From positions 496,001-560,000 of the forward strand of contig NZ_FOIS01000001.1 in NCBI RefSeq assembly GCF_900110455.1: a stretch of DNA of 64,000 nucleotides, in the 5' to 3' direction. Numbering within the stretch: position 1 is the stretch's first letter; each line of letters starts with the position of its first letter. Below the pieces are notes generated by a model. It did no database searches. It saw only the letters and a program-made list of their open reading frames with translations, and had not been told where the DNA came from. This document shows positions 31,513-36,964 of this stretch, in pieces. Both the position numbers and the translations under genes were made by a program. The DNA is from Natrinema salifodinae. Its GTDB lineage: Archaea > Halobacteriota > Halobacteria > Halobacteriales > Natrialbaceae.

Positions 31513-31712
31513 TCGGTATGCCGATGGTAGGGTGAGAACATCCTTAAACGGTAACCCTTCGGACGGCGGCAATACGTGAGTAATCGACAGCGGGCGACCG
31601 ATCGGCCGCGGACCGCACGCGGTGCGGCGGCGAGCGCGACCGGTCGACGCCGGTGGTAGCGGCGCCCGAGAGTCCGACACGCTTATTCGCGAACGGCGAC
31701 GAATCACGTGTA

Positions 31713-33374
31713 GTGAGTACCGAGACGCCCGAACCGACCGAAACCGAAGCGTTCGAGCAGGTCTGCAAGACGCTCGTCGAGCGAATCGTCAACGACGAGA
31801 TCGAGCGTGACGAGGTCGAGAAGGCCAAGCTCGAGGCCTGTTCGGAGCACTCGGCGCCGAAGGTGCCGAAGAACTCCGAACTGCTGGACTACGCGCCCGA
31901 CGAGTACCGTGAGGACTTAGAAGCGGTGCTCCGGCGCAAGCCGGTCCGCACGGCCTCCGGCGTCTCCCCGGTCGCGATCATGACCTCGCCCGAGCGGTGT
32001 CCCCACGGGAAGTGCCTCTACTGTCCCGGCGGTCCCGACTCGGAGTTCTCCTCCTCGCAGAGTTACACGGGCGAGGAGCCCGCCGCCGCGCGGGGGGTCC
32101 AGAACGACTACGATCCCTACGGCCAGGTGACGCTGCGCCTAGAACAGTTGCGCCAGATCGGCCACCCCGTCGACAAGGTCGAACTCATCCTGATGGGCGG
32201 GACGATGACCGCTCGAAGCCACGACTACCAGGAGTGGTTCGTAAAGCGGGCCTTAGAGGCGATGAACGACTACGACGTCGACAAGGAACCCGAGCCGGCC
32301 GAGGGCGTCAGCTTCGCAGAGGAGCCCGAGGAGTACGAGTGGAAGTATCTCGAAGACGTCATCGCGGAGAACGAGACCGCAGACGTTCGCAACATCGGGA
32401 CGACGTTCGAGACCAAGCCCGATTGGTGCGATCCGGAGCAGATCGACCGGATGCTCGACCTCGGCGGAACGAAGGTCGAGGTCGGCGTGCAGACGACCTA
32501 CGAGCGGATCAACCGGGAGATGCACCGCGGCCACGGCGTCCAGGCCTCCGTCGAGGCCAACCAGCGGCTTCGCGATTCGGCGTTCAAGGTCGGCTTCCAC
32601 ATGATGCCCGGACAGCCCGGGATGTCCAAGGAGATGTGTCTGGAGGACTTCCGACGCATTTTCGAGGAGGAGCAGTGGAAGCCGGACTACCTGAAGATCT
32701 ATCCGACGCTCATCGTCCGCGGCACGGCGACCTACGACTGGTGGCACAAGGGCGAGTACGAGCCCCTCGACAACGACGAGGCCGCTGATCTGGTCGCCGA
32801 GATCAAGGACATGATCCCCCGCTACACGCGACTCCAGCGGGTCCAGCGCGACATCCCCGCGGACTTCATCGACGCCGGCGTCTGGAAGTCGAACCTCCGC
32901 CAGCTCGCCCGACAGCGCATGGCCGACCACGGCTGGGAGTGCGACTGCATCCGCTGTCGCGAGGCCGGAATGAACGACGAGGAGCCCGAGGACGTCGAAC
33001 TCGACGTGATGACCTACCAGGCCTGCGGCGGCACGGAACACTTCATCTCGTTCGAGGACTTCGACAAGGACCTGCTGGTCGGCTTCTGTCGGCTCCGGTT
33101 CCCGAACGATCCCGTTCGCCCGGAACTCGAAGATGCCGCGCTCGTCCGCGAACTCCACGTCTACGGCTCGGAGGTCGCGGTCGGCGGCGAAGGCGAGACC
33201 GACCAGCACCAACACCAGGGCTACGGCCGCCGCCTGATGGACCGCGCGGAGGAACTCGCCGCCGACGCCGGCTACGACAAGGTCAGCGTGATCTCCGGCA
33301 TCGGCGCCCGGGAGTACTACCGGAACAAGCTCGGCTACCATCAGGACGGGCCGTACGTCAGCAAACGTCTCTGA
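31713..33374 (+). CDS. elp3: Elp3 family radical SAM/GNAT tRNA uridine-34 modification enzyme
   Basis: This enzyme makes the 5-carboxymethyl-type modification of uridine 34 in tRNA anticodons using acetyl-CoA and S-adenosylmethionine. The 553 residues have an N-terminal tRNA-binding helix region, the 4Fe-4S cysteines C96/C101/C104 (CPHGKCLYC), the radical SAM barrel and a C-terminal GNAT domain (HQGYGRRLMDRAEELA). The GTG at 31713 is chosen. TTATTCG (31683-31689) sits about 27 bases upstream, as for a leaderless transcript, while the longer ATG-like start at 31653 adds residues without conservation. Archaeal Elp3 works without the other Elongator subunits. Confidence 0.95.
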   Translation: MSTETPEPTETEAFEQVCKTLVERIVNDEIERDEVEKAKLEACSEHSAPKVPKNSELLDYAPDEYREDLEAVLRRKPVRTASGVSPVAIMTSPERCPHGKCLYCPGGPDSEFSSSQSYTGEEPAAARGVQNDYDPYGQVTLRLEQLRQIGHPVDKVELILMGGTMTARSHDYQEWFVKRALEAMNDYDVDKEPEPAEGVSFAEEPEEYEWKYLEDVIAENETADVRNIGTTFETKPDWCDPEQIDRMLDLGGTKVEVGVQTTYERINREMHRGHGVQASVEANQRLRDSAFKVGFHMMPGQPGMSKEMCLEDFRRIFEEEQWKPDYLKIYPTLIVRGTATYDWWHKGEYEPLDNDEAADLVAEIKDMIPRYTRLQRVQRDIPADFIDAGVWKSNLRQLARQRMADHGWECDCIRCREAGMNDEEPEDVELDVMTYQACGGTEHFISFEDFDKDLLVGFCRLRFPNDPVRPELEDAALVRELHVYGSEVAVGGEGETDQHQHQGYGRRLMDRAEELAADAGYDKVSVISGIGAREYYRNKLGYHQDGPYVSKRL

Positions 33375-33628
33375 TTCGGCACGCCCGCTCGCCTCGGCCT
33401 TCGGTCGTGACGGAATCGTGTAGCTTCCAGTCTCCGATCCCCTCCCCACGGCCATCTTGGGAGTAGCCCGGGACGAAAATTAGACGTTGTTCGCAGCGGT
33501 ATTCTGTCGCTCAGCGGCCATCGAACCTGCGATCGGCATCCTTCACTGAGCGACCTGCTTTGGTCGCCGTTCGAGACCCGTCAATTCAAGAGTAAGTGTT
33601 ATGTTTCCGCCATCAAAATGAGGTATAA

Positions 33629-33691
33629 ATGCCTCAGAAGGAATGTACTCACTGCCCGGTCACCGGTCAGACCGGAATGGAGGGGCGGTAG
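33629..33691 (+). CDS. 20-codon ORF directly before the DUF4157 gene (candidate small protein or leader)
   Basis: ATG at 33629 to TAG at 33689-33691 encodes 20 residues starting MPQKECTHCPVTG, with one CxxC pair. The stop is followed immediately by the ATG of the DUF4157 gene at 33692. The purine-rich GGAGGGG (33679-33685) inside it would serve as ribosome-binding site for that gene. A TATA-like GTGTTATG (about 33597-33604) lies about 28 bases before its ATG. The arrangement suggests translation coupling, but so short an ORF may be chance. Confidence 0.35.
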   Translation: MPQKECTHCPVTGQTGMEGR

Positions 33692-34897
33692 ATGGGTTCG
33701 AAGAAGCGACGCGAACGAGCGACGGAGTCGTCGGAGACGAAGACGGAGACGGCGACCGAGTCGACGACGGTCCAGCGAACGAGTCACGGGGCGGCGGCAC
33801 GCTCGACTGAGACGGCCGCGGGCTCGCAGGCACACGCGGTGAATAGCGGCCGGCCTGACGTGGTCGACGTCCACGGACCGAACCCGGACGAGTTGTACGG
33901 CGGGAACCCAATGGCAGCGTGCGACATCGGCGGGACTGCGCCGGCACCGACGCCCAGCGAATACAACGTCCAGCGCGCTCTCAATGGGACCGACACGACC
34001 AAAGACGAGGTCCCGGACACGGTTCTCGAAGTCCTCGGACAGGGTGGCAAACCGCTCGAGACACCGATCCAACGCGCCCTCGAAGAGGGTCTGGACGCGG
34101 ATTTCTCGAACGTCCGCATCCACACGGGTGCGACCGCCGCCGAAGCTGCCGACACGATCGACGCGAAGGCGTTCACCTGCGGGAACGACATCGTCTTCAA
34201 TGCCGGCGAATACGATCCGGAAAGCCCGGAAGGGCAGTTCCTGCTGGCCCACGAGTTGGCCCACGTCCGCCAGCAGACCGGTGCGGCGATCAGCATGATG
34301 CCGAAGTCGAATGCCGATCTCGAGATCGATCCCGATCCCCAATTAGAGCGCGAGGCCGACCAGGCGGCTGCGCAGGCAGTGTCCAGTGAGGACCCGCTAA
34401 CCGTGAATCGGCTTGGGACGGACGTGCACATCCAGCGGATGCCGACCGAGGCGCAACTCGACCAGGCGCGTGCGGAAGTCGAAGAACGCTTCGGTACGAG
34501 CGTTTCTGCAAACCCCGAGAGCCTTGCCAAAGAGGTCGAGCGGCTCAGAGCAAACCAAGAAGAGATGATGGAGGTCCTCGTCGAAGCCAAACCAGGGGCA
34601 GCCACGGACGGGCCGGACGTCCTCGAGGCAGCGAGCAAAGGACTGGCCGGGGGAGTCACCGGTGCCGTCGTCGGATCGCTTCTCGGACCCGGTGGGACCG
34701 CAACTGGGTTCGCCGCCGGACTCGCGAGCAGCGTCGCTACGGACGTCTCGAAAGAGGGGACGGAGTGGCTGCTGGATAACAGTCCTGGCAGTTCCGCCCT
34801 CGAACTCGAAGCCAGAATCGAGTCGCTCGAAAAACGGCTCGCTGAATTACGAAACGAACAGCCCTGGCATGATACCAGTGGATTAGTCGAATTCTAA
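33692..34897 (+). CDS. DUF4157 (eCIS core domain) protein with HExxH motif
   Basis: The 401-residue product has a charged Ser/Thr-rich N-terminus without signal peptide. The DUF4157 core spans about 122-200 (PLETPIQRALEEGLDADFSN, VRIHTG, HELAHVRQQTG), with the zinc-protease-like HExxH at His187-His191. A Glu/Arg helical region follows, then a glycine-zipper hydrophobic segment (about 317-350, GGVTGAVVGSLLGPGGTATG) and a C-terminal coiled coil (about 375-395). DUF4157 is known as a marker of cargo or toxin-like proteins tied to extracellular contractile injection systems, but no tail, sheath or baseplate gene is present here. The partner at 34900 starts two bases after the stop. Function is unknown; a protease-like or secreted role is only inferred. 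Confidence 0.82.
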   Translation: MGSKKRRERATESSETKTETATESTTVQRTSHGAAARSTETAAGSQAHAVNSGRPDVVDVHGPNPDELYGGNPMAACDIGGTAPAPTPSEYNVQRALNGTDTTKDEVPDTVLEVLGQGGKPLETPIQRALEEGLDADFSNVRIHTGATAAEAADTIDAKAFTCGNDIVFNAGEYDPESPEGQFLLAHELAHVRQQTGAAISMMPKSNADLEIDPDPQLEREADQAAAQAVSSEDPLTVNRLGTDVHIQRMPTEAQLDQARAEVEERFGTSVSANPESLAKEVERLRANQEEMMEVLVEAKPGAATDGPDVLEAASKGLAGGVTGAVVGSLLGPGGTATGFAAGLASSVATDVSKEGTEWLLDNSPGSSALELEARIESLEKRLAELRNEQPWHDTSGLVEF

Positions 34898-34899
34898 TC

Positions 34900-35907
34900 A
34901 TGAAGGCAGAAATAAAGAAGGAAACCGAAGACGGATTCGGTCTACTAGTTGTTGATAATAATCGGTCCGAACACAAAATCGGGATTAGATTTGACGGGAG
35001 GATTGACGGCCACCTCTGTGATGCTTATGCTGACGATCCGAATCACCGCACCGAAGAAGAGAACGAGCACAACAACCAGGCTCGCCGCTTCGCCAAATAC
35101 TTCGTCTACGCCGAACGTGGCTACGACATCGTCGAACGCACGGAGAATCCGGATTCCATCGAGGCAGTCCGACAGGCGATTGCCGACCTGTCATCCGACG
35201 CTTTCGAGGAGTTTTTCGGTCCGATCCACCAGCAACTCCGGAGCCATCACGATGCGACCGTCGTGCGCCCCCGCGCTTTGCCCGCCGCCGTCCGGTATCC
35301 GGACGACGTGATCTACAAGCAGGATCTTTACCTCGGGAGAGACCCCCGCGAGAGTGCGTTCGCAGACACTGCGCGAACGATCGCCGCCGAGACCGGACTC
35401 GATCTCGACGACGCCATGCGGCCTCGAGTGCTCGCTGACATTCCATCCCATGACCTCGACCAGTGGCAGGAATTCACCGAGGAGTTGGCTGATGAGATCG
35501 ACACGGACGCTGTAGACGCCGAACTACAACTCGAAGAGGGGGCCGTCTCGGGCATTCACGTCTCCTATCCGGACCGGAACGGAGAACTCGTTACCGATGA
35601 CGCCGACGATCCACTCGACCGCCAGCCGGACGCCCGACTCGAACTAGTAACGGCCGATCCTGGGTCTCTCGACGACTTCAAAACGTACCTCGATCACCAC
35701 CTCAAGTGCCAGGTGCGTGACTGCCTCGTCGGGATGGGCCTGGTCCCGCCCAAGAAGTACCGCGTGCTCGGTCCCGGCAAGTTCATCTACACCCGCCGAT
35801 ACAACCACTACGACATATATCCGGAACTGCACAGCAGTCGTACCGAACCAGAGCGACTGTTTGGGCGAGTGCGGCGCGCACAATCATATTTGTGGAAGCT
35901 GATATAA
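34900..35907 (+). CDS. Unknown protein paired with the DUF4157 gene
   Basis: The 335-residue product is unrecognised. The first 45 codons are distinctly AT-richer than the surroundings, which suggests transfer or relaxed selection. The N-terminal part (residues 1-100) is polar and acidic. The middle is acidic and helical. The C-terminal module (about 278-325: DDFKTYLDHHLKCQVRDC, VGMGLVPPKKYRVLG, RRYNHYDIYPE) is rich in Tyr, His and Cys. That module recurs in decayed form at 35937-36155, so it behaves as a separable unit. The gene starts two bases after the DUF4157 stop, so an operon and a protein-level partnership (immunity, chaperone or co-effector) are likely but unproven. Confidence 0.72.
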   Translation: MKAEIKKETEDGFGLLVVDNNRSEHKIGIRFDGRIDGHLCDAYADDPNHRTEEENEHNNQARRFAKYFVYAERGYDIVERTENPDSIEAVRQAIADLSSDAFEEFFGPIHQQLRSHHDATVVRPRALPAAVRYPDDVIYKQDLYLGRDPRESAFADTARTIAAETGLDLDDAMRPRVLADIPSHDLDQWQEFTEELADEIDTDAVDAELQLEEGAVSGIHVSYPDRNGELVTDDADDPLDRQPDARLELVTADPGSLDDFKTYLDHHLKCQVRDCLVGMGLVPPKKYRVLGPGKFIYTRRYNHYDIYPELHSSRTEPERLFGRVRRAQSYLWKLI

Positions 35908-35936
35908 GGACGTTCGAAGACAGTCAAGAGAATTGA

Positions 35937-36155
35937 TATCCTCCCGCCCAGAAGGGCGAGGAGTTCCGCGAGTACGTGGATCATCACCACCGATGTCAGG
36001 TGCAGGATTGCTTCGTTGGAATGGGCCTGGTTCCGCCAGAGCCCTATCGCGTCGTCGGCTTCGGGAAGTTCATCTACATCCGTCGATACGATCACTACGA
36101 TCTTTACCTGCAGTTTCACTTGCGAGACGGGGACCACGAAGCTATCATTCGGTAG
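35937..36155 (+). pseudogene. Orphan copy of the C-terminal module of the 34900 gene
   Basis: An open stretch without a good start codon encodes EEFREYVDHHHRCQVQDC, then VGMGLVPPEPYRVVGFGKF and RRYDHYDLYLQF. This lines up with the C-terminus of the 34900 gene almost residue for residue, with about half or more identical, then runs to its own TAG at 36153. The N-terminal two thirds are missing. It looks like the remnant of a second copy, or a stored alternative C-terminus. Confidence 0.75.
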
Positions 36156-36160
36156 TCCGC

Positions 36161-36251
36161 TCCGGTGAGGACGATCCCGACAATGGAGAGGGGCCAGTTC
36201 CTGCCGGCGCACGAACTGCCACGGTCCCAGCAGACTGACGCGGCGACCAGT
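36161..36251 (+). pseudogene. Decayed DUF4157 core fragment, HExxH destroyed
   Basis: Read with one frameshift, this stretch gives SGEDDPDNGE then GQFLPAHELPRSQQTDAATS. It aligns to residues 171-201 of the DUF4157 protein (AGEYDPESPE, GQFLLAHELAHVRQQTGAAIS). The second metal His is lost (HELAH has become HELPR), and a one-base change in a G run near 36190 breaks the frame. No other part of that gene is visible nearby. Confidence 0.7.
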
Positions 36252-36350
36252 CACAAGCTATCGAGGGCTCGCTTTTCGTCCCCATCCGAACAGCATCAGT
36301 CGGAAGACACGAAAGACAGATAAAAGACCCCGCGCTGTGAATAGACAGAT

Positions 36351-36527
36351 ATGGACGTTCCGTACGACCTCACCTCGTACGTTCGGGTGTTGAAATTGGC
36401 GGAGACACCCACTACTGAGGAGTTCCTCCAGGTGTCGAAAATCGCTGGTGCGGGCATTTTGTTCGTCGGACTCATCGGGTTCCTCATCGGCGCAATCATG
36501 CTGTTCCTGACAGGTGGTGGCCTCTAA
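36351..36527 (+). CDS. secE: Protein translocase subunit SecE (Sec61 gamma)
   Basis: This 58-residue, single-helix subunit clamps the SecY channel. It begins [20 protein letters not shown], the usual amphipathic helix with the archaeal core ([16 protein letters not shown]), followed by one hydrophobic helix ([16 protein letters not shown]). The length is normal for archaea. Its stop overlaps the nusG start in TAATG at 36525-36529, the conserved secE-nusG arrangement. Confidence 0.93.
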
Positions 36528-36964
36528 TGGGCATCTACGCTGTCAAGACGACGGCGAGCCAGGAGCGCACCGTCGCGGACATGATCATCAACCGCGAGGA
36601 GCCGGAGATCCACGCGGCGCTCGCACCCGACTCGCTGACGTCGTACGTGATGGTCGAGGCGGACGGCGACGCCGTTCTGAACCGCGTCCTCGAAGATATT
36701 CCGCACGCGCGAAGCATCGTCCCCGGCGAGTCCGATATCTCCGAGGTCGAGCACTTCCTCTCGCCCAAGCCGGACGTCGAGGGGATCGCCGAGGGCGACA
36801 TCGTCGAACTCATCGCCGGTCCGTTCAAGGGTGAGAAGGCGCAGGTCCAGCGCATCGACGAGGGCAAAGACCAGGTGACGGTCGAACTGTACGAGGCGAC
36901 GGTCCCGATTCCCGTGACGGTGCGGGGCGATCAGATTCGCGTCCTCGACTCCGACGAACGGTAG
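36527..36964 (+). CDS. spt5: Transcription elongation factor Spt5 (NusG)
   Basis: This factor binds the RNA polymerase clamp with Spt4 to keep elongation processive. The 145 residues contain the NGN domain ([19 protein letters not shown]) and a KOW domain ([22 protein letters not shown]). It overlaps secE by one base and is cotranscribed with it. Confidence 0.95.

Follow-up and report, generated by a model that had tools for sequence, protein, structure and literature searches.

A probable pseudogene stub with a transposon scar beside an intact, putative DUF4157 toxin-immunity pair in Natrinema salifodinae, probably left from an older array

What is the short open fragment that follows an intact gene pair upstream of secE in Natrinema salifodinae? 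In the window, i.e. the whole stretch of 64,000 nucleotides that was analysed, elp3 (31653-33374) and secE-spt5 (36351-36964) flank a pair of genes and a fragment resembling the 3' end of the second one. The original prediction regarded this fragment as an orphan C-terminal cassette which can recombine with the upstream gene of a polymorphic toxin locus. The reading preferred here, with a probability of roughly 0.88, is that the fragment is a pseudogene stub from the pruning of an older toxin-immunity array at this locus and not a working spare part.

The first gene of the pair (33692-34897, plus strand) codes for a DUF4157/eCIS_core protein of 401 amino acids (PF13699, E 2.7e-30) with an HExxH motif and a glycine-rich, hydrophobic C-terminal part; it is the putative injected toxin. 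The second gene (34900-35907, plus strand) encodes an intact partner of 335 amino acids, the putative immunity protein, for which no family match was obtained in Pfam or NCBIfam; PADLOC and NCBIfam searches were also uninformative for the locus. The AF2 model of the partner is confident (pLDDT 88, pTM 0.79) and has no PDB match at E <= 0.001, and on the basis of this model a new fold for an immunity-like protein is possible. Homologues of the partner were found in 36 of the 125 genomes of the taxonomic family, with up to 22 matches per genome. Most of them alternate with DUF4157 genes in tandem arrays, which reach about 20 copies in one genome. The earlier assignment of the locus to the polymorphic toxin type is right. 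Among the 139 partner loci scanned, 127 hold a full-length partner and four a true C-terminal stub, a count which leaves out a stub cut by the contig end (G064 C42); the others are contig-edge pieces, fusions, split genes and other truncations. A DUF4157 gene or its tail ends just upstream of 118 of 123 full-length partners, and 40 of these 118 toxin ORFs lack the DUF4157 N-terminus. Partners thus stay full length while the toxin ORFs lose their N-terminus, a pattern expected of immunity genes.

Genomes with the partner family tend to have the CIS tail-tube gene as well, which is present in 29 of the 36 genomes with a partner and in 6 of the 89 others (Fisher p 4e-16). In N. salifodinae a CIS cluster is located at 1064-1071 kb of contig C1, about 540 kb away from the pair in the window, and comprises genes for the sheath, two tubes, Pvc16 and an AAA ATPase, followed by a paralogous DUF4157-partner pair. 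According to the accessible parts of a recent study, DUF4157 proteins of like arrangement from Halogeometricum borinquense proved toxic when H. volcanii was used as the host, and the partner encoded downstream prevented this toxicity (Zachs et al. 2024; PMC11566945). These haloarchaeal CIS/T6SS pairs share with the window the DUF4157 protein, the downstream partner and a position in or away from the CIS cluster. The likeness is one of arrangement, by which the window pair would have toxin and immunity roles; a counterpart of the stub was not found in those parts of the study. A fourth pair of N. salifodinae, on contig C4 (L016 7204-9375), consists of a frameshifted DUF4157 gene and an intact short-form partner without the region of about residues 150-209, as if immunity had outlived its toxin.

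The fragment itself (35957-36155, plus strand) is the terminal part of a partner gene, some 65 codons long. It aligns without gaps to residues 258-311 of the 34900 product, the C-terminal module encoded at 35671-35832 on the same strand, with 64.8% identity over 54 amino acids (tblastn E 1.6e-21), and it ends at its own stop codon (TAG, 36153-36155). The BLOSUM62 score of this alignment is 218, and the maximum across 500 shuffles was 52; the likeness is real and far above chance, and the recurrence of the module directly downstream with its own stop was therefore rightly recognised. The differences between the two sequences are distributed 13/9/24 over the three codon positions, and hence most of their shared history was coding. 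The span first given, 35937-36155, holds at its end; the start was placed some 20 bp too early, since partner-gene homology begins at 35957 and the preceding 20 bp, together with the sequence up to 35963, belong to the end of an IS200/IS605-type transposon and are not coding homology.

Which gene this fragment stems from can be read from its relatives. When the whole stub, including the tail, is compared with full-length partners from other genera, it is 72-85% identical to their C-termini; with an intact partner of another genus (L088_8857 in G096) it shares 81% nucleotide and 85% amino acid identity through the stop codon. The identity to the neighbouring 34900 product amounts to 60-65% at the amino acid level. 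As the stub is nearer to partners of other genera than to its neighbour, it represents the 3' end of a second partner gene, one that belongs to another subfamily. The original prediction had left the choice between an old copy and an alternative specificity; a different allele is indeed present, namely one of the subfamily of the G096 gene.

The 5' edge is formed by a transposon scar. Positions 35932-35963 correspond to ATTGATATCCTCCCGCCCAGAAGGGCGAGGAG within one base and share about 90% identity with the palindromes at the 3' ends of tnpB elements (IS200/IS605, IS1341-type) in related genomes; several of these ends directly adjoin a tnpB gene. Folding of the stretch yields a strong hairpin (z -4.2). 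Palindrome and partner codons overlap by 7 bp (GCGAGGA), and thus the fragment meets a transposon end at its 5' edge. In haloarchaea, IS605-type elements reduced to terminal remnants are known (PMC3119063). As in the core deletions and PATEs described there, a near-terminal palindrome which matches the ends of tnpB elements remains after loss of the transposase gene, whereas at the stub only one end was recognised, and this end is fused to a truncated host gene.

The 3' side is bordered by debris of a toxin gene. Just behind the stop codon of the stub lies a remnant of a third DUF4157 gene (36161-36250, plus strand), which covers the region around the HExxH motif and is broken in its frame. 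It matches a DUF4157 gene with 81.7% nucleotide identity over 93 bp (E 8e-16) with small indels, and none of 20 shuffled queries gave a match. From about 36297 onward the sequence is that of the secE region, common to all 28 other genomes of the genus that were searched; DNA matching the pair is absent from the 1.5 kb upstream of secE in all 28. The upstream neighbour of secE varies between the Natrinema species inspected, and positions 33375-36300 may be an insertion hotspot.

A search for further cassettes beyond the window, proposed at the outset, did reveal more C-terminal stubs. One of the same subfamily is located in the same genome at C1:909904-910122 (L017 7905-8126) and shows 87% nucleotide identity to the intact G096 gene. 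It abuts a divergent gene for a GNAT acetyltransferase and no toxin gene is nearby; it is near-complete, with a 93-aa open frame and an ATG in front. Another stub, of yet another subfamily, follows a pair on contig C3 of this genome and is itself followed by a DUF4157 scrap. The order pair, partner stub, toxin scrap is therefore found twice, at the window locus and on contig C3. Every stub with a neighbouring partner matches an allele other than that of the neighbour. Three of the four stubs (window 35957, L017 and L098) begin within about 25 nt of each other, at gene position 733-756. This clustering may be due to chance, or it might reflect a favoured breakpoint or a functional boundary.

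A parallel case in related species documents how such a stub is left. The arrays of Natrinema hispanicum (G057) and N. limicola (G059) are collinear. Their identity is 96% as far as the conserved N-terminus of the toxin; over the toxin tail and the partner they diverge, and from a point within the 3' end of the partner in N. limicola they are alike once more, at 87-89%. It follows that N. hispanicum holds a different pair and, behind it, the 3' stub of the partner which is intact in N. limicola. Displacement of modules in this family, as originally suggested, is thereby confirmed: toxin tail and partner were replaced and a 3' stub was left. In a second N. hispanicum genome (G058) this stub is again present, and its junction is the same as far as the alignment resolves it. 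G058 lacks the different pair of G057 and carries in the stub a further frame-breaking deletion of about 53 nt. Whichever event came first, the stub behaves as debris either way. Plain decay, named beforehand as the outcome that would speak against a cassette, is thus largely what is seen at this parallel locus. The situation resembles effector-immunity displacement in the T6SS of Vibrio cholerae, where a unit is replaced, the old 3' part remains and arrays are formed (Kirchberger et al.; PMC5361080). However, there the leftover is an intact orphan immunity gene, whereas here, in an archaeon, it is a truncated and decayed immunity gene with a transposon scar.

Could the stub nevertheless serve as a silent C-terminal cassette, a donor which recombines with the upstream partner and changes its specificity? 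Across about 118 pairs the similarity of toxin tails was compared with that of segments of the partner. The Spearman correlation is 0.53 for residues 151-200 and 0.45-0.47 for the C-module, whereas residues 1-50 hardly correlate (0.11; permutation maximum 0.12). These values favour the idea, as do near-identical partners that differ in their C-terminal type (97% identity in the N-terminal, 67% in the C-terminal part) and the fact that the stub bears the C-module of another subfamily. In partial correlations both the N-terminal (residues 1-150) and the C-terminal parts of the partner are still associated with the toxin tail. In three genomes there are two types of C-terminus and two of toxin tail, and they correspond in 7 of 7 pairs, a result which linkage would give as well. 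Judged from these sequence comparisons, the C-terminal region of the partner may carry specificity. In the arrays of G034, G046 and G118 (L111, L112, L113, L132) partners are about 95% identical in the middle of the protein and only ~38-56% identical in the first 40 residues; the N-terminal beta domain appears to have been shuffled there independently of toxin type. A C-terminal swap between G046 and G118 was considered as proof of C-cassette exchange and rejected, because the block-wise identity fits one contiguous exchange, most simply of the last residues of the toxin together with the N-terminus of the partner.

Against a donor role stands first of all that the longest continuous run shared by the stub and the 34900 gene is 13 nt, and so there is no trace of a recent exchange between them. 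Orphan modules are known from CDI and Rhs loci (PMC3150448). Like the orphan cdiA-CT/cdiI and rhs-CT modules, the haloarchaeal arrays contain toxin tails that lack the N-terminus and are each accompanied by a full partner, and some are disrupted by transposons. In those loci, however, an orphan consists of a toxin tail plus an immunity gene, whereas here a lone tail of an immunity gene is found: the fragment has neither a toxin tail nor an intact immunity gene, nor does it share a long recombinogenic stretch with the main gene. C-terminal stubs are rare (4/139) and debris-like, invariant residues have been lost in the present one, the comparable stub of G058 is eroding, and the orphans that survive are toxin tails with whole partners; the fragment is therefore not a C-terminal cassette of this kind. 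With no start of its own, bordered by a transposon scar and a toxin scrap, deprived of invariant residues and sharing just 13 nt with the upstream gene, it does not sustain the recombinable cassette first proposed, which is now very unlikely. The same low credence applies to the wider proposal that stubs are silent donors which re-tune immunity proteins by gene conversion, the central and C-terminal part of the partner being the specificity region matched to the toxin tail.

Still less probable is that the stub codes for a small functional protein, a 59-aa mini-immunity protein or regulator started at a GTG. The frame is without internal stop, ends at its own stop codon and covers two predicted helices, and the near-complete stub on contig C1 has its ATG-started frame. 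In the AF2 model of the intact protein the C-terminal module consists of two helices (257-278 and 295-303), but the stub begins inside the first of them and the preceding beta-strands are gone. All in-frame start codons (GTG 35976, GTG 36000, ATG 36021 and TTG 36120) are internal to the module and the region before the first GTG is occupied by the transposon hairpin; the stub is without a plausible start. Its private changes include L268H and R273Q, both at positions that are invariant in 55 intact partners. The dN/dS ratio, which had been suggested as a check on the module, is about 0.1 against the best relative; this value is low, but most of the divergence may predate the truncation. An Rfam match to HgcC on the minus strand (19.6 bits, cut-off 50) was treated as chance. 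Most likely the stub does nothing now. Least probable of all, a tandem duplication of the 3' end of the 34900 gene with later divergence would suit the position directly downstream and the 65% amino acid identity, but was rejected as the stub, tail included, belongs to another subfamily and is far closer to other-genus partners (85% amino acid, 81% nucleotide identity) than to its neighbour.

For the pruning of an older array the following course is proposed. The ancestral locus would have held several tandem units of a DUF4157 toxin and its partner, one of which (33692-35907) survives intact. A transposon-associated deletion would have taken away the 5' part of a second partner gene and fused the transposon end to about codon 253 of this gene, and more deletion would have spared just a scrap of a third toxin gene, now in front of secE. 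The order of these deletions is one that we infer, and so is the transfer of toxin and immunity function from Halogeometricum to this pair; the identities of the pieces, their order along the DNA, the difference in subfamily and the parallel replacement-with-stub in related species are direct observations. Most likely the 34900 partner shields its cell from the DUF4157 toxin of the pair, with central and C-terminal parts that are matched to the toxin tail.

The stub itself is debris. Its surroundings give direct sequence evidence of displacement turnover in archaeal toxin-immunity arrays of injection systems, in the manner of the T6SS of Vibrio and of CDI/Rhs loci; earlier replacements are marked by 3' stubs. 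From such stubs one can read the immunity types formerly present in a lineage, and the comparison points to the part of the partner that travels with toxin type, which is not the first 50 residues.
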